From contig NZ_JXSL01000030.1 of the NCBI RefSeq assembly GCF_000829825.1, positions 193,501-257,500 of the forward strand: 64,000 nucleotides of DNA. Reading direction: 5' to 3'. The DNA is from Paramagnetospirillum magnetotacticum MS-1. GTDB taxonomy: Bacteria > Pseudomonadota > Alphaproteobacteria > Rhodospirillales > Magnetospirillaceae. Below the pieces are notes generated by a model, which was not told the origin of the DNA, made no database searches, and saw only the letters and a program-made list of their open reading frames with translations. Numbering within the stretch: the stretch's first letter is position 1; each line of letters starts with the position of its first letter. Both the position numbers and the translations under genes were made by a program. Positions 1,101-57,372 of this stretch are shown here, piece by piece.

Positions 1101-1285
1101 CCAGCCCCGGTCATTTCCACGCCTCAACCGGCGGCGGCGTGCAGCGTCTCGGCCTTTGGTCCGCCTCCGCAGGCCAAGTCGGGACAAGCATCAATCCGTT
1201 AACCATTGTCCGGTCATTATGGGCGGCGTACCGCTCGAAGTGACCGTTCGAGCGGGTTATGGCCCAACCGGAAACGGGACGCTCG

Positions 1286-18039: not shown

Positions 18040-18135
18040 GGCCGGGTTTCTACCACGGGACAGGGCTTGGGCTTAAGCCGATCTTAACGGCGCGCCCCTA
18101 CCCTTTTGTCATCCAAAGGAGTGACGCCCCGCAAA

Positions 18136-19831: not shown

Positions 19832-21153
19832 TGATGAGCACCCTGGCCCTTCTGGGCGGAACCCCTATCCGCACCAAGCTGTTTCCCGCCTATTCGGTCA
19901 TCGGCGACGATGACCGCGCCGCCGTGGCCAAGGTGATGGAAAGCGGTATCCTGTCACGCTTCCTTGGCACCTGGCACAATGATTTCTTCGGCGGGCCCGA
20001 GGTCAAGGCCTTCGAACACGAATGGGCCACCGCCTTTTCCGCCGCCCATGCCATCAGCGTCAACTCGGCCACCAGCGGCCTTTACGCCGCGGCGGGCGCG
20101 GCCGGAATCGGGCCCGGCGACGAGGTCATCGTCTCGCCCTACACCATGAGCGCCTCGGCGGTGGCCGCCCTGGTGTTCAATGCCGTTCCCGTCTTCGCCG
20201 ATATCGATCCCGACAGCTATTGCCTGTCGGCCAAGACCATCGCGGCCAAGATCACGCCGCGCACCAAGGCCATCATCGTGGTCCATATCTTCGGCAATGT
20301 GGCCGATATGGACCCCATCATGGATCTGGCCAAGAAACATGGCCTGACCGTGATCGAGGACTGCGCCCAGGCGCCCTTCGCCACCTATAAGGGCCGTAAT
20401 GTGGGCACTCTGGGCCATATGGGCGTGTTCAGCCTCAATTACCACAAGCACATCCATACCGGCGAAGGCGGCGTGGTCACCACCAACGATTCCCGGCTGG
20501 CCGAGAAGGTTCAGCTGATCCGCAACCATGCCGAGGCGGTGGTGGAGAAGAAGGGCGTGTCCGATCTGGTCAACATGATCGGCTTCAATTTCCGCTTAGG
20601 GGAAATCGAGGCCGCCATCGGGCGCAGACAATTGCTCAAAGGCCCCGATCTGGTGCGGCGCCGTCAAGCCAATGTCCGCTATCTGGAAGACCGCATCAAA
20701 GGCATCCCCTACCTGTCCATGCCCCGGGTCCAAGACGGTGTCGAGCACGTCTATTACGTCCACGGCCTGTCCTATGACGCGGAAGCGGCGGGCGTGTCGC
20801 GCGCCACCTTCGTGCGTGCGCTGAAGGCCGAACTTGCCGCCACCGAGCTTCGGGAAGGCGAAGGCGTACTGATGGGCGAGGGCTATGTCCGCCCGCTTTA
20901 TCTCCAGCCCCTGTACCAGAAGCGAGTCGGCTATGGCGAGGTGGGCTGCCCCTTCAAATGCCCCCATTACACCGGAACCCCCGACTACGCCCCGGGGTCG
21001 TGCCCCAATACCGAGGACGCCCATTTCAACCGGGTGATCACCCACGAACTGATCCGCCCCCCGGCCTGTCGCTCCGATCTGGACGACGTGGCCAATGCCT
21101 TCGCCAAGGTGGCGGAAAACATGGCGGCGCTGCGCGATCTGGAGCGCAAGTGA
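19831..21153 (+). CDS. DegT/DnrJ/EryC1-family PLP-dependent sugar aminotransferase
   Basis: 440 residues. It has the family's HAISVNSATSGLYAAAGAAG and GDEVIVSPYTMSASA regions, VIEDCAQAPFATYKG, and the PLP region FSLNYHKHIHTGEGGV, where the Lys should form the Schiff base. Late cysteines (CPFKCPHY, SCPN) are unusual. The likely role is transamination of a ketosugar nucleotide made with the adjacent oxidoreductase. Tandem ATGs occur at 19831 and 19834 with GGAG upstream. It overlaps both neighbours by one base (TGATG), so the operon is tightly coupled. Confidence 0.9.
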   Translation: MMSTLALLGGTPIRTKLFPAYSVIGDDDRAAVAKVMESGILSRFLGTWHNDFFGGPEVKAFEHEWATAFSAAHAISVNSATSGLYAAAGAAGIGPGDEVIVSPYTMSASAVAALVFNAVPVFADIDPDSYCLSAKTIAAKITPRTKAIIVVHIFGNVADMDPIMDLAKKHGLTVIEDCAQAPFATYKGRNVGTLGHMGVFSLNYHKHIHTGEGGVVTTNDSRLAEKVQLIRNHAEAVVEKKGVSDLVNMIGFNFRLGEIEAAIGRRQLLKGPDLVRRRQANVRYLEDRIKGIPYLSMPRVQDGVEHVYYVHGLSYDAEAAGVSRATFVRALKAELAATELREGEGVLMGEGYVRPLYLQPLYQKRVGYGEVGCPFKCPHYTGTPDYAPGSCPNTEDAHFNRVITHELIRPPACRSDLDDVANAFAKVAENMAALRDLERK

Positions 21154-22112
21154 TGTCCAAATACCGGGTGGAACCCATGCCCCCCGGCGCGGCGGAAGAA
21201 GGCTTTCCCGAGTGGGATGCCCATCCGTTGCGCGGCGGGTTCGCCGCCCGGCTTTATCCCACCGTGGCCCCGGCCCACACGGATTGCTCGGTCCAGGTCA
21301 TCGGCCCCACCGGGCCGGTGGTGCGAATCCGCGCCACCATGGGACCGGGCGAGATATCGTTCTGGGGCCTGCCCGCCCTGCTGGCCTCGAAGCCCGACGC
21401 CGAGCCCAAGCATATCAAGGGCGGCCTCGCGGCGGCGCTGGATCACCTGACCGAGGCCGCCAAAGCGGGCGGCCTGACACGGCTGGTCATCGGCACCGAG
21501 GCTCATTCCCGTCCCGATCCCTTGGCCGCCCTGCTGGCCGACCGGGGAGCCGAAGGCGCCATTCAGGCTTCGGCCCAGTTGGACCTCACCCGGCCGGAAG
21601 AGGCCCTGCGCGCCGATATCAGGGACAGCTACCGCTCGCTGACCAATTGGGGCAGCCGCAATCTTCGCCTGGCCTTCATCAATGCCGAGAACCCCGACCG
21701 CGCCCAGTTCGACCTCTTCCCCGATTTCCATGCCCGCATCGCTGGCGGCAGGCGGCGAGGCGAGGATTACTGGGCCATCTATTGGAACGAGATCAAAGCC
21801 GGGCAGGCGGAAATGGCGCTGGGATTCTTGGAAGACGGCACATTGGTGGCCGGGTCCATCGTGGTCTGGGCGGGCGTCACCGCCTATTACGCCTCGGGCG
21901 TCTACGACCGCGACCAGTTCGACAAGCCGCTCGGCCACTGGCCCTTGTGGACCGCCATCCTGCGCGCCAAGGAAACAGGGCTGGAACGCTTCGACTTAGG
22001 GGAAATCCCGGCCCGCGGTCATGCCGATGACAAGGAAATCTCCATCGCCTTCTTCAAGCGCGGCTTCACCTCGGGACGCAATTTCCGCATCCGGTGGGTA
22101 CTGGGCGTTTAG
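21153..22112 (+). CDS. FemAB/GNAT-like acyltransferase of the sugar cassette
   Basis: 319 residues. The second half resembles FemAB-type N-acyltransferases: LGFLEDGTLVAGSIVVW, TAYYASGVYDRD, then LERFDLGEIPARGHADDKEIS with IAFFKRGFTSG, the usual D-x-G...K...FK-x-GF closing pattern. The first half is less conserved. Following an aminotransferase, it would plausibly acylate the new amino group of the sugar. This is inferred from context; no acceptor is proven. The ATG shares one base with the upstream TGA. Its stop codon sits inside an 18-bp tandem duplication. Confidence 0.7.
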   Translation: MSKYRVEPMPPGAAEEGFPEWDAHPLRGGFAARLYPTVAPAHTDCSVQVIGPTGPVVRIRATMGPGEISFWGLPALLASKPDAEPKHIKGGLAAALDHLTEAAKAGGLTRLVIGTEAHSRPDPLAALLADRGAEGAIQASAQLDLTRPEEALRADIRDSYRSLTNWGSRNLRLAFINAENPDRAQFDLFPDFHARIAGGRRRGEDYWAIYWNEIKAGQAEMALGFLEDGTLVAGSIVVWAGVTAYYASGVYDRDQFDKPLGHWPLWTAILRAKETGLERFDLGEIPARGHADDKEISIAFFKRGFTSGRNFRIRWVLGV

Positions 22113-22129: not shown

Positions 22130-23905
22130 AACGTCAAAGCCCTTTGGCTTCTCGCCCTTCTCCCACTTGGCCCACATGGTGTCCAAGGCCCGTTCCAGCG
22201 GCGGGGTGAAGGCCTTGCCATCGAACAGGGGCGAGGCTTGGGTGGCGGCCCACAGGCGCTGGCGCACCTGCTCCAAGGCCTCCCGGTCCTTGGCCAGATG
22301 CTGGGCCAGGGCATGATAGCCCCCTTGCGACTCCGCGATCAGTTCATCAAGGCCCAGGGCATGGAGCAGTGATCCCGCCACCCGCGAGGCAAAGGTCCGG
22401 CCCGCCCAGGCCACCAGAGGCACACCGGCCCACAAGGCGTCGCTGGCCGTGGTGTGACCGGCGCAGGGCCAGGTGTCGAGGAACAGATCCGCGGCCGACA
22501 GGCGCAGCATATGCTCGGCCTGGGGCAGGCGCGGCGCGAAGATCAGCCGCGACGCATCGATGCCCACCGCGCCCATCATGGCGCGCAGGCTGGCCGTGGC
22601 CGCCGGGTGGAATTCCACGAACCACAGCACCGCATCGGGTTGGGCCTGCAACACGGCGACCCACACCGCCAGGGTCTCGGCATTGAACTTGAAGCTATTG
22701 TTGAACACCGCGATGACGAAGGCATCCTCGGGCAGGCCCCACTTGGCCTTGGGCTCGCGGGTGGCGGCGCGCGCACGCCGCGAATCATTGGGCTGATAGC
22801 ACAGCGGCAGACGCACCACCTGCTCGGCGTAATCATTCTCGGCGCCCGCTGGGATCACGTAAGGATCGGCGATGATATAGTCCATGCAGGTGCCGCCGAA
22901 CGTGCCGGGAAAGCCCAGCCACGCCACCTGGATGGGGGCTGGGCGGGCCGCCAGAATGGATGTGCGGGCCCGGCCCGTATGCCCCTTGAGATCGACCAGG
23001 ATATCGATGCCGTCGGCGGCGATGCGCTTGGCGCAATCGGCCTCGGACAGGGCCGCCAGTTCCACCCAATGGTCGCAGGCGTCACGCAGGCGTGTGCGCA
23101 CCGCCCCCTTGTCCTCGGGCCCATAGGAATAAGCGAAGATCTCGAATCGCGATCTGTCGTGGCTTTCCAACGCCTCGGCCAGCAGATAGGCGGTGGCGTG
23201 ATCGTGAAAATCCTCGGACAGATAGCCCAGCCGCAGGCGCGGGCGGCGCGCCTTGGGCTGATGGACCATGGGGGCCACCCGGCTTTCGATGAAGGTGGCG
23301 GCCTCGTCGGCATGACGGCGCAGCTCGGCCGGGCTGAAATCATGGACCAGCAGGGTGAAGGGCGGAACCGGCAGGCTTTTGCCTGTGCGCCATGAGGGCA
23401 GGGCGGAAATGGCCTCCTTCACCACCGGGAGATTATCCCAGTCGCACAAGACCGCCAGTTCCAGACCGAGATAACCCAAGGCCCCGCCATCGGCGCCGCC
23501 GGTCAGGCGCACCACATTGCTATAGGCCAGGGCCGAGCCTTCATGGTCATCCAGGCGCGCCGCCAGACTGGCGATATTGCGCCAGCCGTCCACGAAAGAG
23601 TCATCGAGCTCCACCGCACGGCGATAGCAGGCCATGGCATCGGCGGTCCGGCCTTGGCCCAGCAGCACCGTGCCGAGATTGCCGTGAAAGGCCGGCGCCT
23701 TGGGGGTGGCGGCAATGGCGCCGCGGATCAGGCGCTCGGCCTCCGTCAGCTGGCCTTTCTGCATGGCCACCAGTCCCGACAGGTGCAAGCCGTCGGGATG
23801 AAGCGGCGACAGTTTAAGCAGATTCTTGTATTGCCGGGCCGCCCCGTCCAGATCGCCGGAGAGATGGAGCTTCACTGCGTCTTGCAGGAGCTGGTCCGCC
23901 GTCAT
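22127..23905 (-). CDS. TPR/O-GlcNAc-transferase-like glycosyltransferase, copy 3
   Basis: 592 residues from the ATG at 23905; in-frame TTG/ATG codons at 23941 and 23935 would lengthen it slightly. Three to four TPRs occupy about residues 1-140 (for example LLQDAVKLHLSGDLDGAARQY). The GT41 domain runs from about 227: GYLSEDFHDHATAYLLAEAL, DGIDILVDLKGHTGRAR, AWLGFPGTFGGTCMDYIIAD, NNSFKFNAETLAVW (the conserved Lys) and AGHTTASDALWAGVP. It is more divergent than copies 1 and 2. It converges on the sugar cassette, so a link between sugar donor synthesis and transfer is plausible but inferred. The acceptor is unknown. Confidence 0.88.
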   Translation of the reverse strand: MTADQLLQDAVKLHLSGDLDGAARQYKNLLKLSPLHPDGLHLSGLVAMQKGQLTEAERLIRGAIAATPKAPAFHGNLGTVLLGQGRTADAMACYRRAVELDDSFVDGWRNIASLAARLDDHEGSALAYSNVVRLTGGADGGALGYLGLELAVLCDWDNLPVVKEAISALPSWRTGKSLPVPPFTLLVHDFSPAELRRHADEAATFIESRVAPMVHQPKARRPRLRLGYLSEDFHDHATAYLLAEALESHDRSRFEIFAYSYGPEDKGAVRTRLRDACDHWVELAALSEADCAKRIAADGIDILVDLKGHTGRARTSILAARPAPIQVAWLGFPGTFGGTCMDYIIADPYVIPAGAENDYAEQVVRLPLCYQPNDSRRARAATREPKAKWGLPEDAFVIAVFNNSFKFNAETLAVWVAVLQAQPDAVLWFVEFHPAATASLRAMMGAVGIDASRLIFAPRLPQAEHMLRLSAADLFLDTWPCAGHTTASDALWAGVPLVAWAGRTFASRVAGSLLHALGLDELIAESQGGYHALAQHLAKDREALEQVRQRLWAATQASPLFDGKAFTPPLERALDTMWAKWEKGEKPKGFDV

Positions 23906-23997
23906 GTGCTTGCCGCCGCTCAACTGCCGCTCCATTCCCAATAGGTCATAGGTCGAGGATAGGGGGCGGGGCGGGATGCGTCAACGCGTTGCCACCC

Positions 23998-24015: not shown

Positions 24016-24109
24016 ATACGGTTTGGCAAGATTCCCCTGCCTGACGTATGATTCGGCAAAGCTTCGAGCTGGCGATGGGCCGCGCTCAATGAATGTCGGG
24101 GGAAACCTA

Positions 24110-24454
24110 ATGTCCCAACCTATCCAGATCGAGTCGCTCAAGATCGGCGAACAGGATGCCTTCGGCTTGGTCGAAGCGGCCATCACCCTGGATCAATCGC
24201 GCGGCGACAAGGCCCGCCTGGCCGCCGCGCTGGACCATAATCTCCAGCTCTGGGTCGCCATCCGCACCCTGGTCACCGATACCAATAGCGGTTTGCCCGA
24301 CGCGGTCAAAACCAACCTGACCCGCCTGTCCGACTTCGTCGCCGACACCACCTTGAAGAAGGGTGTCGATATCAGCGACAACACCATCACCACCCTGGTC
24401 AACGTCAATCTGCAAATTTCCGAGGGGCTGCTGGAAAGCGCCAACCGAAGCTGA
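24110..24454 (+). CDS. Short FlaF-like protein, paralogue A
   Basis: 114 residues, starting at an ATG preceded by GGGGGA. The body (DKARLAAALDHNLQLWVAIRT, LTRLSDFVADTTL, LVNVNLQISEGLLE) matches the FlaF pattern N-x-x-LW ... L-x-x-FV-x-x-T ... N-x-N-x-x-GL and is colinear with the protein at 50388-50762. FlaF is an alphaproteobacterial regulator of flagellin synthesis that acts with FlbT. This version lacks FlaF's N-terminal NPYSNAA region, so it is a shortened relative whose role is not known. Its stop overlaps the apparent CTG start of cobD. Confidence 0.65.
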   Translation: MSQPIQIESLKIGEQDAFGLVEAAITLDQSRGDKARLAAALDHNLQLWVAIRTLVTDTNSGLPDAVKTNLTRLSDFVADTTLKKGVDISDNTITTLVNVNLQISEGLLESANRS

Positions 24455-46725: not shown

Positions 46726-46803
46726 GGCGGGTGTAGCTCAGTTGGTTAGAGCGCCAGTTTGTGGTACTGGATGTCGTCGGTTCGATTCCGATCACTCGCC
46801 CCA
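46726..46803 (+). tRNA. tRNA-His(GTG)
   Basis: Cloverleaf with acceptor GCGGGTG/CACTCGC, D-arm GCTCAGTTGGTTAGAGC and anticodon loop TTGTGGT (anticodon GTG) within CCAGT/ACTGG. The T-arm loop is TTCGATT, and CCA is encoded. The extra G at 46726 opposite C73 is the G-1 identity element of histidine tRNAs. Confidence 0.97.
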
Positions 46804-46862: not shown

Positions 46863-47612
46863 TCAGGCACCGCCAAGAAGGCTGATCATCTGGCTGGCCT
46901 CCACATCCTCGGAATCGAGGCCGAGCGCCGTGCGATAGGCTGACAGGGCTTCCATCTTGCGGCCCAGGGCATGGGCAGCACGCCCCGCCGCCCGCCACAG
47001 GCGCCCGTCTTCGGGATAGGAATCGATGGTGGGGCGAAGCATCTCGGCCGCTTCGGCGTGACGCCCGGTCTCCACCAGAATATCGGCAAGGCGAAGCACG
47101 GTGTCGGGACCGGACGCAACCGCCACGGCGCGCCGGGCAAAGTCCTCGGCCTCGGCGCTACGTCCCTGGGCCAGGAACAATCCGGCAAGATTATGCAGGG
47201 CCAGCCCGGATTGGGGGGCAAAGTCGAGGACGGAGCGATAGCAGCTTTCAGCTTGCGCCAGGTTACCGGCCAGATGCTCCAATCCGCCCAGATTGGTCAG
47301 GGCCAGTTCGTGACGGGGATGACGTTCCAGGCATTTGACCAGGGCCGAGCGCGCCTCATCCATGCGCCCGAGAGCGGCCAGAACCACCCCCCGGCCGTAA
47401 AGGGCATCGGCGGAACCCGAGACGGCCGCCCGGTCGATGAATCTCAGGGCCAGAGGCAGATCCCCCGCCTGATGGGCGGCGACGGCCAATTCCATCAGAC
47501 CCGGATGGGCGGGCGCCACCTTGCCCAGATCGCGCGATACGGTCCGCGCCTTGGTGAAATCGCCATTCCGCGCCTTGGCCAGCGCCTCTTCCATTCGATC
47601 AAGCTTCGCCAT
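46863..47612 (-). CDS. TPR-repeat protein
   Basis: 249 residues composed almost entirely of about six to seven tetratricopeptide helical pairs (for example ALALTNLGGLEHLAGNLAQAE and LALHNLAGLFLAQGRSAEAE). There is no signal peptide or catalytic domain. Its start lies inside the preceding GT-B-like gene (14-base overlap), so the two are co-translated. In this block, where TPR domains are usually fused to glycosyltransferases, it could be a free scaffold for the neighbouring enzyme; that is inference. Confidence 0.85.
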   Translation of the reverse strand: MAKLDRMEEALAKARNGDFTKARTVSRDLGKVAPAHPGLMELAVAAHQAGDLPLALRFIDRAAVSGSADALYGRGVVLAALGRMDEARSALVKCLERHPRHELALTNLGGLEHLAGNLAQAESCYRSVLDFAPQSGLALHNLAGLFLAQGRSAEAEDFARRAVAVASGPDTVLRLADILVETGRHAEAAEMLRPTIDSYPEDGRLWRAAGRAAHALGRKMEALSAYRTALGLDSEDVEASQMISLLGGA

Positions 47613-48705
47613 GGGCTCTTTCCGCTAGGTGTTGTATCAATTCCGCCAGCAGTGCCGGTGCCGCGCCGTGGCGCAGACAATCCGCTGGCTTTTCCCACTG
47701 TCCGGCTGCCAGCCAACCGGCAATGGCCTCGGGTGCAAGATCCCGGCGTGTCACCAGTCCAATGCCCGGCCGTCGAACCGCCGCGGCCAGATCATCGCGC
47801 ACCAGTCCGGGCTGCAGGCTGATCACCGGCTTTGCCTGCAGCCATGCCTCGTATAGCAGGATGGAGGCCATTCCCGCCACCCGGTCGGCGGCCAACACAA
47901 CCTGCCTGCCACCAAAATCCCTGACGATTCCGCCCCCCAGATTTCCCCGCAAGGACTGCCACAGCGCCTCCAGTTCCACCAGATCATCCCGTGGATGGGG
48001 AAGGATGGCCAGATCGACCGTCCCGGCCATGGGCTGCAATTGTCCGCACAGCAGCGCCAGCACATCGCGCTCGGTATAGCCGCGCCATCCGGGGGTGCGG
48101 GAATCCGTGCCCTGATCGCGGGCGACGGGCTCGCCGATGAAGGCGATCAGTTGACGAGGCGGCACCCCCAGGCCCAGCCGCATCCTCAGATCGCGCCGCC
48201 TTGGCGCCGTCGCCTCGGAAATTTCCCGAGCCAGTCCGGCCAGTCCGGGATGGCCCGTGACCTGAAGACAGGACGCGGGCACACCCTCGGCCAGGGCTTC
48301 GTCGCGGGCCTTGTCATCCATGACGGCGTAGACATCGGGAACAAAAAGCGGCCCGCCGTCCATCTCCAGGCGCACCCGGTAATTCATCCAGTTATCGAGG
48401 ATGCAGACCACCGGCAGACCAAGGCTCTGGGCGCTTCTGGCCAGGGCCAGAGGCAGATGATCTGCCAGGGACGTGCCGAAACAGACACAGGAGATTCCGC
48501 AAGCTTCGAGCCATGCCCCCGGATCCCCGTCGGGAGGCGCCAGCCGGATCAGTTCGTCCGTGGCATTGCGACCGAGAAAACCGTGATCGAGGATAGCGGC
48601 CCGCCCGCCCCGCCCCGCCAGCATCTGGGCCACGGGCAATATCGCGGCGGCCCCGCCGGGATCGACGGCGGCGAACAGGACGGAGGGAGGGGCCGAAAGG
48701 GTCAT
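47599..48705 (-). CDS. Putative GT-B-fold glycosyltransferase-like protein
   Basis: 368 residues from ATG 48705; a GTG at 48717 is an alternative. The sequence has a Rossmann-like N-terminal half (VLFAAVDPGGAAAILPVAQMLAGRG) and a C-terminal half with AILPHPRDDLVELEALW and LAADRVAGMASILLYEAWLQ plus AKPVISLQPG. This is the order seen in nucleotide-sugar-binding GT-B enzymes and UDP-GlcNAc 2-epimerase relatives (the S/A-x-x-x-E in the nucleotide site). I cannot name the family. It is coupled to the TPR protein downstream and lies in the flagellin-modification block. Confidence 0.6.
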   Translation of the reverse strand: MTLSAPPSVLFAAVDPGGAAAILPVAQMLAGRGGRAAILDHGFLGRNATDELIRLAPPDGDPGAWLEACGISCVCFGTSLADHLPLALARSAQSLGLPVVCILDNWMNYRVRLEMDGGPLFVPDVYAVMDDKARDEALAEGVPASCLQVTGHPGLAGLAREISEATAPRRRDLRMRLGLGVPPRQLIAFIGEPVARDQGTDSRTPGWRGYTERDVLALLCGQLQPMAGTVDLAILPHPRDDLVELEALWQSLRGNLGGGIVRDFGGRQVVLAADRVAGMASILLYEAWLQAKPVISLQPGLVRDDLAAAVRRPGIGLVTRRDLAPEAIAGWLAAGQWEKPADCLRHGAAPALLAELIQHLAERAHGEA

Positions 48706-48732
48706 GCCGGAATGCACTGTGGCGAGACGGAA

Positions 48733-48775
48733 TCAAAAATCCCCGGACAAGGCGCTTTTGGACCTTGTCCGGGGA
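48733..48775 (-). terminator. Rho-independent terminator of flaF
   Basis: TCCCCGGACAAGG (48740-48752) pairs perfectly with CCTTGTCCGGGGA (48763-48775). On the minus strand the hairpin is followed by ATTTTTGATT, 25 bases after the flaF stop. Confidence 0.9.
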
Positions 48776-48799
48776 GGAAAGGGTTCACCCTGGCAAAGA

Positions 48800-49285
48800 T
48801 CAGGCCGTGGCGCTGATGGGCGTATGAGCGGCGCCTGGCGCCGGTGCATAGGGGTTCGCGGCCGGTGCGGCGGCGGCGGGGTCGATGGCTCCGGTCGCCT
48901 CGGCGGCCTCGCGGGCCTCACGGGCCAGGGAATCACGCAAACCGCTGGCGATATTGCGGTTGATATTGACCAGCACTTCGAGCTTGGGGGCGTCGGGCTC
49001 GGTCAAAGCGGCGACCGTATGGAAATCGACGAACTGGCAAAGGCTGAGCATATTGACCACGGTCTCCGTGGTTTCACCCGCCTCGACCTTGCCGATCAGG
49101 TCGGCCTGGAAAATGGTCCAGAGCTTCCAGTTAAGCCGCAATGCATCGCGCATGCCCTCGGGCTCGCCCCGAGATGCCGACGCCATGCGCCGCGCCGCCT
49201 CGGTCAGTGCCCAGGCCTCCGTTTCGCGCGGATTGCCTTCCTGCGGAATGTTCGCGGCGTGGGCTGCGTTGCTGTAAGGATTCAT
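48800..49285 (-). CDS. flaF: Flagellar biosynthesis regulator FlaF
   Basis: 161 residues. It starts MNPYSNAAHA with GGGAG five bases upstream; an in-frame start at 49300 is less favoured. The family pattern follows: PRETEAWALTEAARRM, ALRLNWKLWTIFQADLIG, NMLSLCQFVDFHTVAAL, VNINRNIASGL. The Ala/Pro-rich C-terminal 45 residues are an extension. In Caulobacter FlaF and FlbT act oppositely on flagellin translation and secretion. No flbT is seen in the window. It shares the minus strand with the coiled-coil gene 40 bases upstream. Confidence 0.92.
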   Translation of the reverse strand: MNPYSNAAHAANIPQEGNPRETEAWALTEAARRMASASRGEPEGMRDALRLNWKLWTIFQADLIGKVEAGETTETVVNMLSLCQFVDFHTVAALTEPDAPKLEVLVNINRNIASGLRDSLAREAREAAEATGAIDPAAAAPAANPYAPAPGAAHTPISATA

Positions 49286-49325
49286 AACCTCTCCCATCAC
49301 TTCTCAGGAAGGTGAGCCCATCGAC

Positions 49326-50180
49326 TCAGGAAAACAGATTGACCACGGACCCCGGCTGATAGGTGTCGTTGGTCTGGGCCTTGACGATTTTTTCATTCTG
49401 CTGCTGCTGCGACTCGAAGCTGACTGACAGGGCCTGCAGTTGCGAGGCGATTTCCAGCTTCATCTGCTTGGCCTGTTTGGCCACATCCTTCTTGATGTCG
49501 GCCGCCTGGGTCTGCTGGTGGTCCTCAATCTCCGAGATGCGGTCCTGCACCCGGGTTACCTCACCAGCCGCCATATCCAGGCGATTGTAGAGCTGCGACA
49601 CCAGTTGGTTCGCACGGGTAAGACCCGCCGCCAACTCGACGCTGGAGCCGGTCGGGGGCTTGGCCTGATCGTCGTCCGCCGAAAAATGCTTGATACCGAT
49701 ACCGTTCAGGCGGATGTCGCCCACACCCTCATCGCCGTAGAATGAGAATTCCGTCCCGTCGACATTGGGCAGGCGGCTCAAGGATTCATTCAGACTGTCG
49801 ACGCTGGCATTGTATTCTGTGGCATCGGGCGTATCGCCAGCCGCGGCGTGGAGCTGCAAGGAGGCGTTCTGCAAATCCAGATCGCCGATCTTATCGAGAG
49901 TCTCGGCCACCTGGGCGACGGCATTGGACACCAGATTCTGGTAATCCTGAAGCTTCGGCAGTTGTTCCTTCAGCTTGCTAAGCTCAGTGTCAAGCGAGGT
50001 ATCATAGGTGTCCATCGCCTTGCGCTGCAGCACCTGCATCTTGTCATTGTACTGATTGGCGTAGGAATTCTGGATATTGGCGAAGGCAAGATTGAAGGCT
50101 GGCCGCGCGGACATGCCGGACAGAGTGCTGAGCATCTGGGTAAGATCGCCCGCATAGGCGCTGAGCACGGTATCGGTCAA
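49326..50180 (-). CDS. Coiled-coil protein of the flagellin block, function unknown
   Basis: 284 residues starting at TTG with a strong GGAGG six bases upstream. Long amphipathic helices occur at both ends (LDTELSKLKEQLPKLQDYQN; RVQDRISEIEDHQQTQAADI with KKDVAKQAKQMKLEIASQLQ) around a short beta-looking segment (GTEFSFYGDEGVGDIRLNGI). The N-terminal LSAYAGDLTQMLSTLSGM and C-terminal GSVVNLFS have no obvious motif. It is not a recognisable flagellin, FliD or chaperone. Its place immediately upstream of flaF suggests a flagellum-related job. Confidence 0.7.
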   Translation of the reverse strand: MTDTVLSAYAGDLTQMLSTLSGMSARPAFNLAFANIQNSYANQYNDKMQVLQRKAMDTYDTSLDTELSKLKEQLPKLQDYQNLVSNAVAQVAETLDKIGDLDLQNASLQLHAAAGDTPDATEYNASVDSLNESLSRLPNVDGTEFSFYGDEGVGDIRLNGIGIKHFSADDDQAKPPTGSSVELAAGLTRANQLVSQLYNRLDMAAGEVTRVQDRISEIEDHQQTQAADIKKDVAKQAKQMKLEIASQLQALSVSFESQQQQNEKIVKAQTNDTYQPGSVVNLFS

Positions 50181-50300
50181 AATAACCTCCGACGCATTTG
50201 GGCGAGTTCTTCACCCGTATTGGAGCCTAGCACCCTTCCGTTAAGAAATCCATAAATCGGCCCCATAGGCAGGGCGGTACGTCGCGGAAGGACCGCGGAG

Positions 50301-50318
50301 GTTAACGCTTTTCTAACC
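50301..50318. promoter_or_regulatory. Candidate operator shared by two flaF-like genes (site B)
   Basis: GTTAACGCTTTTCTAACC, with the inverted repeat GGTTA-N9-TAACC (50300-50318), lies 69 bases before the FlaF-like start at 50388. Fifteen of 18 bases match site A at 23998-24015. It also sits in the divergent region of the coiled-coil gene. Confidence 0.4.
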
Positions 50319-50387
50319 CTGCGACGCGCAGAATATCAGGCTGAATCAATGATATCCGCCAATGTACCGCAAATCCCGGAGTCTCCC

Positions 50388-50762
50388 ATGACCGAAGAAA
50401 TCGGTGACCTCTCCTCCCTTCCCCTCCCCGAGCAGGAGGCCCTCAGCCTGGCGGAGGCTGCCATCGCCCTGGACCGGGCCCGCAGCAGCAAGGATCGGGC
50501 CGCCGAACTGGTGGCTGCGCTCAATCACAATCTCGAGGTCTGGGTGGCCATCCGCTCCCTGGCCCGGTCGCCGGGCAGCCCCCTGCCGCCCGATCTCAAG
50601 GCCAATCTGATCCGGCTCAGCGAATTCGTGGCGCACACCACCTTCACCAATGGCGCCACCATTGGGGATTCGTCGCTGAACACCCTGATCAACATCAATA
50701 TGCAATTGGCCGAAGGGCTTCTGGAAGGCCAGAAGAACGCGGGCGGCGCCACCACGGGCTGA
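50388..50762 (+). CDS. Short FlaF-like protein, paralogue B
   Basis: 124 residues with CGGAG seven bases before the ATG. Its body (AEAAIALDRARSSKDRAAEL, VAALNHNLEVWVAIRSLAR, LIRLSEFVAHTTF, LININMQLAEGLLEG) is colinear with paralogue A at 24110-24454 and with the core of FlaF. It is transcribed away from the flaF/coiled-coil pair and converges with the TPR/GT9-like gene, the two stop codons touching within TGATCA. It may modulate flagellin expression or chaperone a subset of secreted proteins; unproven. Confidence 0.65.
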   Translation: MTEEIGDLSSLPLPEQEALSLAEAAIALDRARSSKDRAAELVAALNHNLEVWVAIRSLARSPGSPLPPDLKANLIRLSEFVAHTTFTNGATIGDSSLNTLININMQLAEGLLEGQKNAGGATTG

Positions 50763-51779
50763 TCAGCCCGCAAGCGCCTGCAACTCCGTGCGCACCGTTC
50801 CCAGGACCGGTGCCCACCCCTCCCCCTGCCGCGCCCGGAACAGACGGGCGGTGGGATACCAGGGGCTGTCGTCGCGGTCCAGCAACCAGCGCCAGTCGGG
50901 AAATGCCGCCAGGACCACCCAGACGGGACGCCCCAAGGCACCGGCCAAATGGGCGGGCGACGTACACGACGAGATGATCAGATCCAGCCCCGCCATAGCG
51001 GCGGCGGTCTGGCTGAAATCGCTCAGTTCCGGCCCGAGATCGACGAAGTTAGCGGGCATGGCCCGCCCCTCCAGGGCGGCGGCGGCCGGGCCTTTCTGCA
51101 AGCTGAAGAACGTAACGCCCGGCACGTCGAGCAAGGAAAGATAGGGGGCCAATCCGGGAGAGCGGCGCCAGTCATAACCGGCCTCGGGATTGCCGCCCCA
51201 GACCAGCCCGACCTTCAACCCGCCATAGGATTCCAGCCGCGCCCGCCATGCCTCTACCGCTGCTGGGTCCGGGGTCAGATAGGGGATGGCGGCTGGAATG
51301 GTCTGCAGCGTGGTGCCGAACGCATAGGGCAACGACATCATGGGCACCATGAGGTCCGGCTGCGCCATCTCTTGGCCCGGCTCCACCGTCGAGGCCACAC
51401 CGGGCACCGTCGACAGCAGAGCGCCAAGCCCCGACTGGCAGCCCACCACCACGCGGGCGCCACGCCGGGCCAAGGGCTCGGCATAGCGGACGAACTGAAT
51501 ATTGTCGCCGAATCCCTGCTCGCCCACCACCAGTACGGTTTCGCCCTTCAGGGGCTGCCCCCGCCAACGGGGGCCGGGAACCGGCGGCTGAGGCCTGTGT
51601 TCATTGAGGGACAGGCCGCGGCGGTAATCGCCCTGCAGCAGCAGCAACTGCCCCAGGGACATGCGCAACAGGGGATCCTTCGCTCCGGCGTCCAGGGCGG
51701 CACGATAGATGGCAACAGCCCCGGCGAGATCACCCGCCTCGATGCGTGCGAAGGCCTCGGCGAAGGGATCGCCCGCCAA
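50763..51779 (-). CDS. TPR protein with GT9-like C-terminal glycosyltransferase domain
   Basis: 338 residues. One to two TPRs (FARIEAGDLAGAVAIYRAAL, LLRMSLGQLLLLQGDYRRG) precede a domain with RWRGQPLKGETVLVVGEQGF, GDNIQFVRYAEPLARRGARV, VGLVWGGNPEAGYD and the LDLIISSCTSPAHLAGALGR nucleotide-sugar-site segment. This is the common TPR plus glycosyltransferase-9-like architecture. The apparent start is TTG, four bases after the stop of the OGT-like gene; the ribosome site is weak and the next ATG would cut into the TPRs. Probably a glycosyltransferase acting with its operon partners; donor and acceptor unknown. Confidence 0.75.
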   Translation of the reverse strand: MAGDPFAEAFARIEAGDLAGAVAIYRAALDAGAKDPLLRMSLGQLLLLQGDYRRGLSLNEHRPQPPVPGPRWRGQPLKGETVLVVGEQGFGDNIQFVRYAEPLARRGARVVVGCQSGLGALLSTVPGVASTVEPGQEMAQPDLMVPMMSLPYAFGTTLQTIPAAIPYLTPDPAAVEAWRARLESYGGLKVGLVWGGNPEAGYDWRRSPGLAPYLSLLDVPGVTFFSLQKGPAAAALEGRAMPANFVDLGPELSDFSQTAAAMAGLDLIISSCTSPAHLAGALGRPVWVVLAAFPDWRWLLDRDDSPWYPTARLFRARQGEGWAPVLGTVRTELQALAG

Positions 51780-51783
51780 ACTC

Positions 51784-53697
51784 TTAGGACCTTGCCCGTC
51801 GTCTGGCGAGGATGGTGTCGAGCTTCATGGCGATCTCCGTTCCCAAGGTTTCGGGAGTAGCCAGAGACGAGGCCAGAACCCGGTCCCGCAACTCGGCCCG
51901 AATGGCCCCAAGCCTGGGATCCATGGCCAGAGTGGCGGCCTTCTCCACATATTCGGCTTCGCTGCCAGCGATCCATTGGTCGCAGCCTGCGGCGCGCAGG
52001 ATCGAGGCCCCCACCCGCCCGGCCCGGCAATCGGAACGCAAGGTCACCACCGGCACCCCCATCCACAAATCGGTGGCGGTCTCAGCGGCACCGGTCACGG
52101 GCACGGTATCGAGGACCACATCGACCATGTGATTGAAGGCACGGGCCGCGGACATCCCGGCCTGCTCCACCGGCTCCTGGAAATGGACCCGGTTGGCCAC
52201 GCCATATTCGGCGAAAGCCGCCAGGGCCCAGTCGGTCAGTTCCTCTTCCCATGTATCGCGGCCGCCGATCAGCAGACGCGATCCGGGAACGGCGCACAGA
52301 ACCCGCGACCACAAGGCGACGGACGCATCGTTGAAGCGTGCGGGATCACCATGCACGCCGAACATTGCAAAACCACGGGTATTGCGCGGCAGATCAAGGA
52401 TCTCATCTTCGGCCCCCAGGCTCTTGGGGAAGTCGAAGGCCAGCAGACGGCTCACCTCGAGGACCTGATCCGGGCCGTAATTCCTGGCGTCGATCTCCAG
52501 GGTCTCGGCATCGGAAATGACCAATGCGGCACCCGGAATGCGATCGCATACGGGCCAGGTCACCCAATGCACCACCAGAGGAACGCGCTCACCTTTGAAG
52601 ACCGGGAAACGGGCGTGATCGGCGGGGGCGCAAAGATTGATCAGACAGCCGATCTTGTCGCCGCCCACGATGCGCCCCAGGGTGGCATCATCGATATTGG
52701 TGCTTTGCCGCGGGCGCATGGCGGCGGAGCGCATCACCTCGCTCATATGGTCCTGACGGGGGTTGAGGCCGTAAAGCACCACATTGGGAATATTTCGGGT
52801 CACCGGCGCCACGCACTGGATCAAAGGACTGTCATAGACCTGATCCCACATCACTCCGAACAAGGTGGTGTCGGCGTCGATATCGGCCTTGACCCGGCGC
52901 AGCGGCGCTTCGCGCTCGGCAAGATAGGCATCGATGATGGCGTTTGCCGCCGGGCGGCAAAGATCCGACTGGAAGACCAGAGTTCCGGCCAGATGAGCGC
53001 GCAATTTCTCGTCGCCTTCCGACAAATCCCAGGCCAGCTTCTGGTGGGCGAGCGCCGCCGAGTGACGGACCTCGCCCATCAGCGCCTCACCCATCAGGGC
53101 GTGCAGCCAGGGATCGGCGGGCTTGTGATGCAGGGCGGCGCGCAGCATGGCCGAGGCCGCGGACGGACGGCCCAGGGCCAGCAGGGTGCGCGCCGCCACC
53201 ATCATGCAATCCACATCGTCGGAGTGGACGCGCAGATGCTTTTGCGCCTGCAACAGGGCCTCGTCCAGCATGCCCAATTGCAACGCCGCCTCGGCATTGG
53301 TGGCGTGGTGGGAGATGTTGACGTTGCGGATGGCCTCCATATAGGACGCCATATTGTTGGGCAGCAGGGCGGCGGCATCGGGACGCGGCTTCAGGCAGAC
53401 CGCCAGCTTGCCGTAATAAAGCCCATCGGTCAGACGGCCGATGCGGGTGCACACGGCGGCCAGGCCATCGACCAATTCGCGGCAATCGGGGTTATGGGTG
53501 AGCCCGCGCTCCATCAGCTGGATGGCCAGACCAGGGTCACCGCTGTAGAAGGAGATCATGCCCATGGCGAGGAAGACGTAGGGGTTGGTCGATCCCTCGC
53601 CCAGGCGCCGGCGGCAATATTCCAGAATTTCCTCGGAAAGCTCGTTTTCGATCATCCCGGACAGGGCCTGGATGTCGGCGGTGATTTCATCCGTCAT
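51784..53697 (-). CDS. Divergent TPR/OGT-like protein
   Basis: 637 residues. TPR-like helices fill about residues 1-240. The C-terminal half keeps GT41 hallmarks in weakened form: VVHWVTWPV, IPGAALVISDAETL, RFNDASVALWSRVLCAVPGS, VVLDTVPVTGAAETATDLWM and GVPVVTL. The Lys that OGTs use for UDP appears as Arg (GDPARFND), and the HTTASD loop is changed to GAAETATD. It may use another donor or be a partner rather than an enzyme. It overlaps maf by 11 bases, with GGAG seven bases before its ATG, and sits in the maf operon. Confidence 0.78.
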   Translation of the reverse strand: MTDEITADIQALSGMIENELSEEILEYCRRRLGEGSTNPYVFLAMGMISFYSGDPGLAIQLMERGLTHNPDCRELVDGLAAVCTRIGRLTDGLYYGKLAVCLKPRPDAAALLPNNMASYMEAIRNVNISHHATNAEAALQLGMLDEALLQAQKHLRVHSDDVDCMMVAARTLLALGRPSAASAMLRAALHHKPADPWLHALMGEALMGEVRHSAALAHQKLAWDLSEGDEKLRAHLAGTLVFQSDLCRPAANAIIDAYLAEREAPLRRVKADIDADTTLFGVMWDQVYDSPLIQCVAPVTRNIPNVVLYGLNPRQDHMSEVMRSAAMRPRQSTNIDDATLGRIVGGDKIGCLINLCAPADHARFPVFKGERVPLVVHWVTWPVCDRIPGAALVISDAETLEIDARNYGPDQVLEVSRLLAFDFPKSLGAEDEILDLPRNTRGFAMFGVHGDPARFNDASVALWSRVLCAVPGSRLLIGGRDTWEEELTDWALAAFAEYGVANRVHFQEPVEQAGMSAARAFNHMVDVVLDTVPVTGAAETATDLWMGVPVVTLRSDCRAGRVGASILRAAGCDQWIAGSEAEYVEKAATLAMDPRLGAIRAELRDRVLASSLATPETLGTEIAMKLDTILARRRARS

Positions 53698-55693
53698 AAC
53701 GCCACTCCGTCACCTTCTCGAACAGCTCCTCGTCGGATTCGAAGACTTCGATGTTTTCAAAGAACCAATCGGTCTGAATGGCCAGAACCCGGAGGATATC
53801 GGTGAATTCCTCCTCGATGATGGTCCAGAATTCGTCCGTGCGGTCCGGCGGCGTCACCCGCCTGGCGTAAAAGGCCAGGCACATGGCCGACATCAGCAAG
53901 GTGCCGCGAATGAAATACTGGGCGGCGCTGGGCTTGCCGTCGATCTCGGCGATCAGCACATTGCCCAGATGCAGCATCATCTTGTTGAGGTCGCGGTCGC
54001 AATCGTCGAGTACGCCCTGAACTCTGTCCAGCAGGGCCTTGATGGTCTCGGGCCAATCGGCCCGCCCCCAGCGTTCCTCGAAATGCCCCTCCTGGGAGGG
54101 AAGCAGACAACGCTCCCAGGCCTTGGCCAGATCGCGGGCCTTGGTCTCCGGCGTGGAGGTCAGCTTAATGGAGGCCGAACTCATGGGCCGCGTATTCTCG
54201 ATCAGCAGACCATCGCTGCAATTGAACACCTCGACCGCCGGGCGATAGCGGCCGATGGCGCGGGCCAACGCGTCACGGGTCCACAGCATGATGGCCTCGG
54301 TATGGGCGAGTCCGCCGAAATTGGCCACGTCCACCTGATCGAAGACGGTGTCGAAATTCATGGCTCCATCCATGCCATCCTTCTGATCGTCATCGTGACG
54401 GTACAGAGAATCCTTGGAATGGTGACGCCCCTGGCTCTTGGTACCCAGATCCACGCCGAACAGGTAAAGCTCGCGGAACCCCATGGCCAGGGCCGCCGCC
54501 AGACCGGTATTGGTCACGGTGGGACCCGATTCGTCCAAGGTATGGGGATCGCCGGGGCTGAAGATGGTGTAGGAGCTGAGTGAGTTGCGGAAATAGAAAA
54601 CCGGGGTCTTGAACATCTCCTTGACGCGGGGATCGACCGTGTTGGAGGCGATCAGGACCGTATCGCCATAGCCGAATTCGTCATCCACCGCCTTGAGTGC
54701 CCGGTAGGGGGCCGCCCCATTTTCCAGCAGCATCTGGAAATCGGGTTTGATTCCGTTGGCCATCAGGACGCGGGCCGCCGTGCCGCATGAAATGATCACC
54801 GCGCGGTCCTTATAGGCCTTGATCACCTCGATATCGTCATCGAGCGAGGGCCCGGAACCGACGATGAAGACCGGCGTCGGCATGGGAAAGGGACTCTGCT
54901 TGAAGACCCGGTAATACCCTTCCCGGAGATTCATATAGGACGCCCGCACCATTTCCATCTCGTCATGGAAAAAGCCCAGTCCCATGCCGATCAGCTGGGC
55001 ATCACGGTAGAATTCGGTGATGGCCGCGTTCAGGATCGGGCTTTGATAGGCCATCTGATAGCGGGTCCAGTCCACCATGATGGGGCTGGAGAAGCGGAGA
55101 TGCGCCCGTACCCTGCGGGCGATGTCGCCCGGTTGGTCAGAGACCAGGATAGTGACGTGCTGCTGCCCCTGGGCCGTGCGTTCCAGGATCGGCTCCCAAT
55201 CCATCACCGCCAGGGAATGATAGAGAAAATCCAGATTGGGCTCGACGATGCAGACCGAGATGGGCTCCACCTGCTCGAGCAGCAGCGGGATGTGATAGCC
55301 CAGGCCCAGACCGAAGCTGACCAGATGGAAGGCCTTTGGTTCGGAAGGGTAGTGCAGGAATTCAAGACCGGCTTCGGTCCCGCGTTTGAGAATGCGGTTG
55401 AGAAAGCGGTTGGTGACAAGATCGACGTTACGGCTGGACAGCGGCGCCATGTTGACGCGGGATTCAGGCGCCAGGGCCAGGGCCTTGGCCGTCCCTTCGG
55501 ACCGCTGGCGTCCGCCTGGCCCATAGAGAAACTCGCCGCGGAACTCCACGTCCCAATCGCCGTCCACATTGCGCACCAGCTTGCTTTGCGGCGTATGGCT
55601 ACTGAGTTGGGCCGCCAATTGCGGCGCCCATGTATGAAAGGCCTTCAGATTGGCGGAGATCAGATCTTTATCCACCCCAGCTTCGATACTCAT
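53687..55693 (-). CDS. maf: Motility accessory factor (Maf) flagellin glycosyltransferase
   Basis: 668 residues of the Maf/DUF115 family. The central domain has VFIVGSGPSLDDDIEVIKAY, VIISCGTAARVLMANGIKPD, LIASNTVDPRVKEMF and LYLFGVDLGTKSQGRHHSKD. The N-terminal part includes VSFGLGLGYHIPLLLEQV. Maf enzymes transfer nonulosonic acids or related sugars to Ser/Thr of flagellin in the cytoplasm before export and are needed for filament formation in several bacteria, Magnetospirillum included. It lies directly downstream of the flagellin gene, separated by a terminator, and is followed by the divergent OGT-like gene. Confidence 0.92.
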   Translation of the reverse strand: MSIEAGVDKDLISANLKAFHTWAPQLAAQLSSHTPQSKLVRNVDGDWDVEFRGEFLYGPGGRQRSEGTAKALALAPESRVNMAPLSSRNVDLVTNRFLNRILKRGTEAGLEFLHYPSEPKAFHLVSFGLGLGYHIPLLLEQVEPISVCIVEPNLDFLYHSLAVMDWEPILERTAQGQQHVTILVSDQPGDIARRVRAHLRFSSPIMVDWTRYQMAYQSPILNAAITEFYRDAQLIGMGLGFFHDEMEMVRASYMNLREGYYRVFKQSPFPMPTPVFIVGSGPSLDDDIEVIKAYKDRAVIISCGTAARVLMANGIKPDFQMLLENGAAPYRALKAVDDEFGYGDTVLIASNTVDPRVKEMFKTPVFYFRNSLSSYTIFSPGDPHTLDESGPTVTNTGLAAALAMGFRELYLFGVDLGTKSQGRHHSKDSLYRHDDDQKDGMDGAMNFDTVFDQVDVANFGGLAHTEAIMLWTRDALARAIGRYRPAVEVFNCSDGLLIENTRPMSSASIKLTSTPETKARDLAKAWERCLLPSQEGHFEERWGRADWPETIKALLDRVQGVLDDCDRDLNKMMLHLGNVLIAEIDGKPSAAQYFIRGTLLMSAMCLAFYARRVTPPDRTDEFWTIIEEEFTDILRVLAIQTDWFFENIEVFESDEELFEKVTEWRYDG

Positions 55694-55750
55694 CTCGCCT
55701 TGAAGCCTCCAACTGAATCACCGATCGCCGGATTTTCGATCAGGCCCTTC

Positions 55751-55783
55751 AAAAAAGAAAAGAGGTGGCAAAGCCACCTCTTT
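55751..55783 (-). terminator. Rho-independent terminator of the flagellin gene
   Basis: AAAGAGGTGGC (55759-55769) pairs perfectly with GCCACCTCTTT (55773-55783). On the minus strand the hairpin ends in TTTTCTTTTTTG, 24 bases after the flagellin stop. Confidence 0.93.
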
Positions 55784-55806
55784 CCCCTAAAAACGCGCCA
55801 CCCGAA

Positions 55807-57372
55807 TTAACGGAACAGCGACAGGATCGACTTTTCGTTCTGACCGGCGAAGGACAGCGCCTGGATGCCCAGCTGCTGGCGGGTCTGCAGGGCCAACAGG
55901 TTGGCGCCTTCCTCGTTCAGATCGGCAAGGGTCAGCTTGCCCGAACCGGCCTGGAGCAGATCGACGTAGTTCTTGGTGAAGTCCAGACGGGTGTTCAGCA
56001 GGGCCACGTTGGTACCCAGGTTCTGAGCGTGAGACCGCAGGGTCTGCAGGTTCTCGTCCAGCTTGGTCACCAGGCCTTGCACCACACCGGTCAGCTTGGA
56101 GTCCAGAACGTACTGGCCCGACACGTTGCTGACGGTCGTACGAGCGGAGATCTGGGCGCCATAGGCGACGGTCAGATCGCCACCGGAGGCATAGGCCTGA
56201 CCGCGAACCTTACCGCTGGCATTGGAGATCATGCCAGTGGAGTTACCGATCGCGCCCGCCGACTGGGTACCAGCCGTACCGACAGCACCGATGGTCAGAG
56301 TGGCCGTGAGGGCCGAGCCATTGGTGAAGGTATCGGTGGTGGTGAAGGTCGTTCCGGTGTTACCGGCAGAGCCGACGGTGAAGGTCAGCGCCTCGCCAGC
56401 ATAGCTGAAGGTGTAGGTGCCCGAAGCCAGCGAAGAGCCGGTCAGACCGTTGAAACCAATGGTCAGATTGGAGCCGCTGGCCAGAGCCGAAGCGCTGATG
56501 CCGCCGCTGGTGGAACCGGCATATTCGACGGCGAAACGGGTGCCGTTCTGAATGCTGCCAGCGGTCACGTTATAGGTGTCGCCGTTGGTCTCGGTGCCGA
56601 CGCGGAAGGCGAAGTTGTCGCCATTGGCCACGGCGGTGGAGGTGGTGAACGCCTCGTAGTCCGAACCATTCTCGGTCAGCGAACCCTGCGAGTAGACAGT
56701 GAACGACAGGGTGGCGGAGCCGTAGGAGAAGGTGTAGGTGCCCGAGGTCAGCGTCGTGGCGGTACCGGCATAGGTGGTGCGCACGATGCCCGAACCCAGG
56801 TCGACCGAGCTGGCGTCCTGGAAGTTCAGCTGGAAGCCACCATTGGAGGTCACGGCCTTGGAGATGTTCAGGCCGGTGGCGCCGACGCGCACGTCGACCG
56901 AGGTCACCTCGAGGGTGGAACCGGTCAGGTTCGAGAAGCTGACGGTCAGGGTCTGGCCCTTACCGGCGACCAGGTTCTGGCCCTGATACTGGCTATCGAG
57001 AGCCAGGTTGTCCAACTGGCTGCGCAGAGCGTTGAACTGCTGCACCAGGCTGCCGATCTGCGAGCTCGAAGCGGACTGCGCGTTCAGCGCAAGACCCTTG
57101 AGCTGCTTCACCAGGGTCGAAACACCGGAGATGCCCTGCAGAGCGGTGGACAGGGACGAAACGCCCTGGTCGATGTTGTCTTTCTTGCCCTGGAAGTCGC
57201 TGGCGCGATCGGACAGGGCCTTGGACTGGAAGTAAGCCACCGGATCGTCAATGGCGCTGGCGACCTTCAAACCGGTCGACAGACGGCTCTGAGTACGATT
57301 CACGAGGCCTTGGGTGGACTGCAGCGCAAGCAGGTTGCTGCGGACAGCAGAAGTAAGGGTGACGTCTGACAT
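55807..57372 (-). CDS. fliC: Flagellin
   Basis: 521 residues. Start MSDVTLTSAVRSNLLALQST has AAAGGAG seven bases upstream. N-terminal D0/D1 (RTQSRLSTGLKVASAIDDPV) and C-terminal D1/D0 (LRSHAQNLGTNVALLNTRLD to GQNEKSILSLFR) are typical. The middle (~170-400) is Ser/Thr/Gly-rich with a repeated strand unit (SGTYTFSYGSATLSFTV; SGTYTFSYAGEALTFTV) that should form the outer D2/D3 domain. This is the likely acceptor for Maf-type glycosylation. It has its own sigma-54-like promoter and terminator, so it is a monocistronic, strongly expressed gene. Confidence 0.96.
   Translation of the reverse strand: MSDVTLTSAVRSNLLALQSTQGLVNRTQSRLSTGLKVASAIDDPVAYFQSKALSDRASDFQGKKDNIDQGVSSLSTALQGISGVSTLVKQLKGLALNAQSASSSQIGSLVQQFNALRSQLDNLALDSQYQGQNLVAGKGQTLTVSFSNLTGSTLEVTSVDVRVGATGLNISKAVTSNGGFQLNFQDASSVDLGSGIVRTTYAGTATTLTSGTYTFSYGSATLSFTVYSQGSLTENGSDYEAFTTSTAVANGDNFAFRVGTETNGDTYNVTAGSIQNGTRFAVEYAGSTSGGISASALASGSNLTIGFNGLTGSSLASGTYTFSYAGEALTFTVGSAGNTGTTFTTTDTFTNGSALTATLTIGAVGTAGTQSAGAIGNSTGMISNASGKVRGQAYASGGDLTVAYGAQISARTTVSNVSGQYVLDSKLTGVVQGLVTKLDENLQTLRSHAQNLGTNVALLNTRLDFTKNYVDLLQAGSGKLTLADLNEEGANLLALQTRQQLGIQALSFAGQNEKSILSLFR

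Follow-up and report, generated by a model that had tools for sequence, protein, structure and literature searches.

How the enzymes of cytoplasmic O-glycosylation choose flagellin is an open question, to which the tetratricopeptide repeat (TPR) domain of FlmG, the TPR domain of Maf-1 and the factor GlfM are known answers. A locus of Paramagnetospirillum magnetotacticum MS-1, where the flagellin gene lies among several different glycosyltransferase-like genes, raises this question together with that of how many of these genes contribute a sugar of their own. The locus was analyzed within a stretch of 64,000 nucleotides (contig NZ_JXSL01000030.1 of assembly GCF_000829825.1, positions 193,501 to 257,500 of the forward strand), hereafter the window, from whose first letter all positions are counted. 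The explanation towards which we lean, with modest confidence, is that the genes form two flagellin-modification modules and not four independent transferases; most likely, Maf and a partner protein provide a sugar of pseudaminic type, and a module built on a GT-B-fold protein may contribute another.

In the first module Maf would transfer a nonulosonic acid activated with CMP, for which pseudaminic acid or one of its derivatives is the likeliest candidate, while a dedicated and probably catalytically dead partner would present flagellin to it by means of its TPR repeats and perhaps of an inert glycosyltransferase fold. In the second, the GT-B-fold protein and its own TPR protein would constitute a likely second transferase, for which a cytidylyltransferase-oxidoreductase-aminotransferase set would make an amino-modified CMP-ulosonic acid. 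A TPR/GT9-like protein would be accessory. The features between tRNA-His and topA are the following:

46727-46803, plus strand: tRNA-His (GTG), one boundary of the locus
46863-47612, minus strand: free TPR protein, whose start overlaps the end of the GT-B gene by 14 nt
47599-48717, minus strand: GT-B-fold protein of an unnamed family (AlphaFold model; no Pfam/NCBIfam match)
48740-48775, minus strand: hairpin resembling an intrinsic terminator in the gap between flaF1 and the GT-B gene (14 pairs, then TTTTTG)
48800-49300, minus strand: FlaF paralogue 1 (flaF1; PF07309, 69.7 bits)
49326-50180, minus strand: helical protein without family assignment, with distant homologues near Maf loci elsewhere
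50349-50762, plus strand: FlaF paralogue 2 (PF07309, 62.6 bits)
50763-51779, minus strand: TPR/GT9-like protein with Cys replacing the Asp of VDTxxAHLAG (PF01075 below cut-off)
51784-53697, minus strand: TPR protein of 637 residues with a degenerate GT41-like domain, the proposed Maf partner (PF13844 and TPR matches)
53687-55693, minus strand: Maf flagellin glycosyltransferase (all three Maf Pfam domains; relative of 5mu5)
55753-55787, minus strand: hairpin with a T tail, 3' of flagellin and 5' of maf (from sequence and folding)
55807-57372, minus strand: flagellin, the single one seen in the genome
57833-60547, minus strand: topA, the other boundary of the locus

The minus-strand genes are transcribed in the order flagellin, maf, TPR/GT41-like, TPR/GT9-like, helical-protein gene, flaF1, GT-B-like and TPR gene, the second flaF being the sole plus-strand member of this nine-gene block. 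The TPR/GT41-like gene overlaps the stop of maf by 11 nt, and the GT9-like gene follows 4 nt further on. An earlier note on this DNA had described a GT-B-like protein with a TPR partner, a TPR/GT9-like protein, a TPR/OGT and a Maf, all on the flagellin strand between tRNA-His and topA, and this layout is confirmed; the two flaF genes and the helical protein, in the same stretch, were absent from that description. The central part of flagellin is rich in Ser and Thr (31% in residues 170-430, versus 23% before and 13% after), and the only other Flagellin_N match in the genome is a FlgL-like open reading frame, which leaves the flagellin count at one.

Four other members of the genus (G008, G009, G010 and G016; loci L023-L026) have all nine genes in identical order, so that the block is not due to chance: the gene group is real and inherited. 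Six of the nine were seen in G013, split over two contigs (L027, L028), and in G012 (L029) the genes stand in a different arrangement and a contig end truncates the GT9-like one. Six of the 16 other genus genomes contain both the GT-B gene and Maf, and the GT-B protein had no match in the remaining ten. Named records with a relative of the latter (four loci) belong to Paramagnetospirillum, Phaeospirillum, Magnetospirillum and an uncultured Rhodospirillaceae bacterium.

Maf and its TPR/GT41-like neighbour

The Maf_flag10_N, MptE-like and Maf_C domains of Maf score over their cut-offs (165.5, 121 and 136 bits), and the protein aligns with its solved relative 5mu5 (E 7e-275) over residues 7-667. 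In a set of 40 genomes of the order, Maf matches were obtained in 29, the own genome included, and each of these 29 has a TPR/GT41-like gene no more than ~1.1 kb from a maf. This gene is upstream of maf in some lineages and downstream in others; about 1 kb separates the two in G024 and G032, and they are on opposite strands in G024 and G025. Maf was also found in ten genomes, besides the own one, of a sample of 190 genomes of the class, and eight of these ten have a gene of the linked type within 2 kb of Maf (adjacent in seven, ~1.8 kb away in G203), although among the eight the G116 match is weak, its gene being cut by a contig end, and that of G087 gets the same score from the linked-type profile as from the ordinary one. 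By the evidence gathered here, the TPR/OGT is a constant neighbour of Maf and not an independent fourth transferase. The statement of the earlier note that Maf alone suffices for one sugar is likewise not general, since Maf-2 (Unay et al., 2024) is reported in PMC13317340 to require the co-encoded factor GlfM.

Some observations weigh against so regular a pairing. The Mafs of G145 have no TPR/GT41 neighbour, and near two of the three G217 Mafs there are GT41 genes of the ordinary type, the linked type being absent there. Four extra Maf paralogues (the first Maf of L033, and those of L061, L062 and L066) lack a directly adjoining linked-type partner, which indicates that not every Maf uses one; these four are a sample of the extra copies. 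As a separate observation, the Maf-like open frames of G145 (L115, L116), which are those without a TPR/GT41 neighbour, are ~1,100 residues long and perhaps contain an extra domain.

The architecture of the neighbour is that of TPR plus GT41 (PF13844 at 45.1 bits, with a cut-off of 25, and TPR matches), and its best matches among solved structures are SPINDLY (1e-24) and 5djs (1e-22). Its PF13844 score of 45 bits, however, compares with 280-309 for three ordinary GT41 proteins in the same window. The donor site of GT41 enzymes involves a triad of the HTT type and a lysine. Where SPINDLY, TtOGT and XcOGT have GTTTTCESLY, GCTTSLEALW and AHTTASDALW, respectively, the protein has GAAETATDLW, with AAE in the place of the triad, and an Arg occupies the place of the lysine. 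The lysine is found in none of 28 linked copies versus 24 of 29 unlinked paralogues in this genome set, the triad (defined as T, F, S or C in second place and T in third) in none of 28 versus 18 of 29, and an H, Q or Y of the first lobe in two of 28 versus 23 of 29, the last figures being a hand count from the alignment table. Lysine and triad are also absent, as aligned, from the twenty-ninth linked copy (G027) and from eight copies outside the order, and thus from 37 out of 37, while both ordinary GT41 genes near the G217 Mafs retain them. The unlinked set was hand-picked from the match list and is not random; a non-GT41 row (L057 at 1234) was removed before counting, and the badly aligned L083 was kept among the 29.

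In a tree of 54 glycosyltransferase domains, from which L083, L073 and L071 at 55 were omitted, a branch (support 94/85) separates the 28 linked rows from the 26 unlinked ones; the same branch appears in 96% of bootstrap trees, and none of 500 shuffles was as low. On this tree, a common origin of the linked copies is no more than possible. Overall, the TPR/GT41-like protein is probably a non-catalytic partner of Maf, a helper subunit rather than an extra source of sugar, which would bind both flagellin and Maf. Weighing against this are the fact that the tree is unrooted, with a midpoint root placing linked rows on both sides; the variation among the ordinary paralogues themselves, five of 29 lacking the lysine and 11 of 29 the triad; the acidic residue (D or E) that 15 of the 28 linked copies keep in the final position of the motif; and the poor AlphaFold model of the partner (predicted local distance difference test, pLDDT, of 45.5, from three sequences), of which the glycosyltransferase part is unusable. 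A GT41 domain could also tolerate a different donor, so a degenerate motif is no proof of inactivity. The three ordinary TPR/GT41 proteins of the window, located at 1259-3304, 3304-5364 and 22130-23941, have an intact HTT triad, and two of them are in tandem.

The GT-B-fold protein and a putative donor-synthesis set

No Pfam or NCBIfam match was obtained with the GT-B protein up to E = 1, the UDP-GlcNAc 2-epimerase and NeuC models included; among 14 aligned members of its family there are two weak Epimerase_2 matches and one to NeuC_NnaA (best 7e-5 and 1e-4). The AlphaFold model (pLDDT 68.7) presents a GT-B fold with two Rossmann-like domains, and 671 of 1000 chains reach Z >= 8 (best VIA Z 17.6, with a root-mean-square deviation of 5.0 over 307 residues). 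UDP-GlcNAc 2-epimerases and MurG are the closest folds, a likeness between a predicted model and known structures that leaves the function of the protein unfixed. A fold search of a viral library with the model returned general GT-B-type matches, mostly named glycosyltransferases, and a scan of viral contigs with the protein gave no match. Searching solved structures by sequence with the family yielded weak matches only, UDP-GlcNAc 2-epimerases and KpsC among them. The alignment of the 14 relatives retains a DxG element, an HP pair and a G......E element in the second lobe. Identity with PseG was considered and rejected: PseG is separately encoded in L039, L031 and the own genome.

The GT-B gene is tied to genes elsewhere in the window:

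18106-18867, plus strand: cytidylyltransferase (CTP_transf_3), which opens the set that goes with the GT-B gene
18845-19831, plus strand: GFO_IDH_MocA oxidoreductase of the set, which co-occurs with the GT-B gene
19798-21153, plus strand: DegT-type aminotransferase, a member of the set
20958-22112, plus strand: FemAB/acetyltransferase-like protein behind the set, also present in four genus loci (L122-L125) and in L121
24023-24451, plus strand: third FlaF paralogue, near the set (PF07309, 43.5 bits)

Sixteen of the 40 genomes of the order set have the GT-B gene, and 15 of these the oxidoreductase, for which none was found at E <= 1e-20 in the 24 genomes without the GT-B gene; this line was fixed beforehand because the superfamily is large. 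The overlap of 15 gives a Fisher p of 4e-10 with relatedness ignored, and relatedness among the genomes inflates such co-occurrence probabilities. In the sixteenth genome (G025), a 25%-identical oxidoreductase was found beside the GT-B gene (tblastn 1e-19, in the fetched loci). Within the genus the two genes are kept or lost jointly, seven of 17 genomes having both and ten neither, with a distance between GT-B gene and set of ~26 kb in the window and of more than 1 megabase in G008. Cytidylyltransferase, oxidoreductase, aminotransferase and GT-B gene form a single run in L036, L039, L040, L042, L118 and L120, and L117 has the same run with the cytidylyltransferase not detected. In the class sample, the aminotransferase accompanies a strong GT-B match in seven of seven genomes, with an oxidoreductase in the same gene run (E 4e-8 to 4e-71); in G106, GT-B gene and oxidoreductase are alone on a short contig. 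Eight genomes with weak GT-B matches (E 3e-16 to 3e-7) were excluded from the family count by a line drawn post hoc, and a second, partial match in G106 was not counted. For large families, the class-sample searches scored part of the first-look candidates, so misses are possible.

The set follows PseG and PseI in L039 and L040, and its substrate is for this reason probably a nonulosonic acid, judging from gene order. In the own genome, PseG and PseI score over curated cut-offs; elsewhere in it, NeuC passes its cut-off and a NeuB-like synthase narrowly misses its own. The association of the GT-B gene with the set, also where no Maf was found, makes a second donor sugar plausible and suggests one of ulosonic-acid type that would be independent of Maf. 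No paper turned up in a literature search on Kdo8N combined with aminotransferase. Flagellin, flaF, flgK or flgL are near the module in L036, L039, L040, L042, L118, L119 and L121, and the position of the GT-B gene in the present locus would make flagellin its acceptor. On the other side, Maf was not found in five of the seven genomes outside the order that have the GT-B module, and the stretches examined there contain neither flagellin nor FlaF, so the module may serve another surface glycan. Also to be counted against the second module as proposed are two class genomes that have the aminotransferase and no GT-B match, and the terminator-like hairpin that parts the GT-B gene from flaF1. L118 (G034:C26) may represent a Maf-free user of the module: flagellin, flaF and the GT-B module are found together there in a genome, 85% complete, with no Maf match.

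Further genes and alternative explanations

The TPR/GT9-like protein scores 19.2 bits with PF01075, under the cut-off of 22, and thus falls outside the GT9 family as defined by it. The Asp of the VDTxxAHLAG motif has a role in the nucleotide site; it is replaced by Cys in eight of eight orthologues beside Maf and present in five other full copies of the fetched loci, one fragment having been set aside in this alignment. The family is large, with a match in 38 of the 40 genomes, and the protein is best taken as an accessory one of uncertain activity. The helical protein at 49326-50180 ends in VVNLFS, somewhat like a flagellin C-terminus, and distant homologues of it are encoded close to Maf in G024, G032, G025 and G203. 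Three FlaF paralogues are present in the window (48800-49300, 50349-50762 and 24023-24451), versus one flagellin found in the genome. Elsewhere in the window (5628-7724), a chemoreceptor with a C-terminal hemerythrin domain is encoded.

As for transcription, the hairpins behind flagellin and behind flaF1 recur in five relatives folded for each of them. A terminator scan returned six sites, no excess over the 7.3 in shuffles, and the hairpin at 55753-55787 was not among them; since the scan count was not above that of shuffles, claims are limited to the two hairpins recurring in relatives. A sigma-70 promoter scan found no site. With their T tails, the two hairpins suggest that flagellin and flaF1 are transcribed separately, as units distinct from the genes behind them.

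The earlier note had proposed a multi-sugar flagellin glycan or separate acceptors, which would imply four active glycosyltransferases, each with its own sugar. The four related genes are indeed conserved together in relatives and the GT-B gene goes with a donor-synthesis set of its own, but lysine and triad are absent from all 37 linked GT41-like copies, the GT9-like protein has exchanged its Asp for Cys and the genome has one flagellin, so we consider this proposal improbable. What persists of it is a plausible second sugar, through the GT-B gene and its set; the TPR/OGT is, on this evidence, not an independent transferase, and a single flagellin leaves little room for separate acceptors. 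It seems somewhat less improbable, though doubtful, that the TPR/GT41-like protein has kept transferase activity through a changed donor pocket (e.g. for a CMP-sugar) and acts with or after Maf. Its GT-B lobes and an LDT..LWMGVP framework are still recognizable, relatives of it have been retained beside Maf across the class, and the D or E in 15 of 28 copies might be read in the same sense; nonetheless, three donor-site elements are degenerate, and replacements that vary between lineages are more in line with a relaxation of constraint than with a newly fixed specificity.

That the GT-B-fold protein is a biosynthetic enzyme of nonulosonic acid, epimerase- or hydrolase-like, and that all modules feed one sugar to Maf, is a possibility to which we would give some, albeit limited, weight, given that its nearest folds are UDP-GlcNAc 2-epimerases and that the set stands behind PseG and PseI in two loci. 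PseG is nevertheless separately encoded in L039, L040 and L031, GT-B gene and set occur with no Maf match in G034 and in the five genomes outside the order, and 14 of the 40 genomes have Maf and no GT-B gene. A chance or lipopolysaccharide-related cluster with no role in flagellin modification would agree with the five genomes lacking flagellin and FlaF near the second module, but the conserved block around flagellin and the flagellar genes found near the module in several lineages make it very improbable.

Comparison with known systems

At the level of the class, we consider it an even matter whether Maf in Alphaproteobacteria generally works with a dedicated, GT41-derived TPR pseudo-glycosyltransferase, which would have lost donor binding and become a flagellin-recruiting subunit, a second and unrelated solution to the problem solved by GlfM. 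A Maf partner of this kind was not found in the literature on flagellin-glycosylation Maf, FlmG, GlfM and TPR or pseudoenzyme partners, a search that left subscription journals mostly uncovered. If true, the class-wide pairing would add a further answer to the question of how flagellin is chosen, could explain why some Maf proteins possibly fail when expressed alone, and would warn against annotating such genes as O-GlcNAc transferases. The GT-B family and its set, for their part, resemble a so far uncharacterised module that would serve an amino-modified ulosonic acid and whose flagellar link is testable in the genus.

Maf itself is similar to 5mu5 in its three Pfam domains and in an alignment that runs nearly end to end; the difference is that the gene here overlaps, and in relatives regularly pairs with, a TPR/GT41-like gene. 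With OGT, SPINDLY and TtOGT, the partner shares TPR repeats and the GT41 fold and differs in having neither the donor-site lysine nor the HTT-type triad. GlfM is reportedly a small four-helix bundle, whereas the partner, with 637 residues, combines TPR repeats with a GT41 fold, the two being compared by description. They would be alike in role, since GlfM is reported to be co-encoded with Maf and needed by it to engage flagellin, as we propose for the partner.

In Caulobacter, the TPR domain of FlmG binds flagellin, and the protein, which also has a GT-B-like domain, is required for modification with pseudaminic acid, C. crescentus having no Maf according to the same paper (PMC7591256). This pairing of TPR and GT-B resembles the GT-B/TPR gene pair of the present locus, and the role of the Maf partner would be comparable to that of the TPR half of FlmG. 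A reading of the gene pair as a split FlmG was considered and not adopted, the gene order being reversed: compared by architecture, FlmG is a single protein with an N-terminal TPR domain, whereas here there are two overlapping genes, with GT-B coming first.

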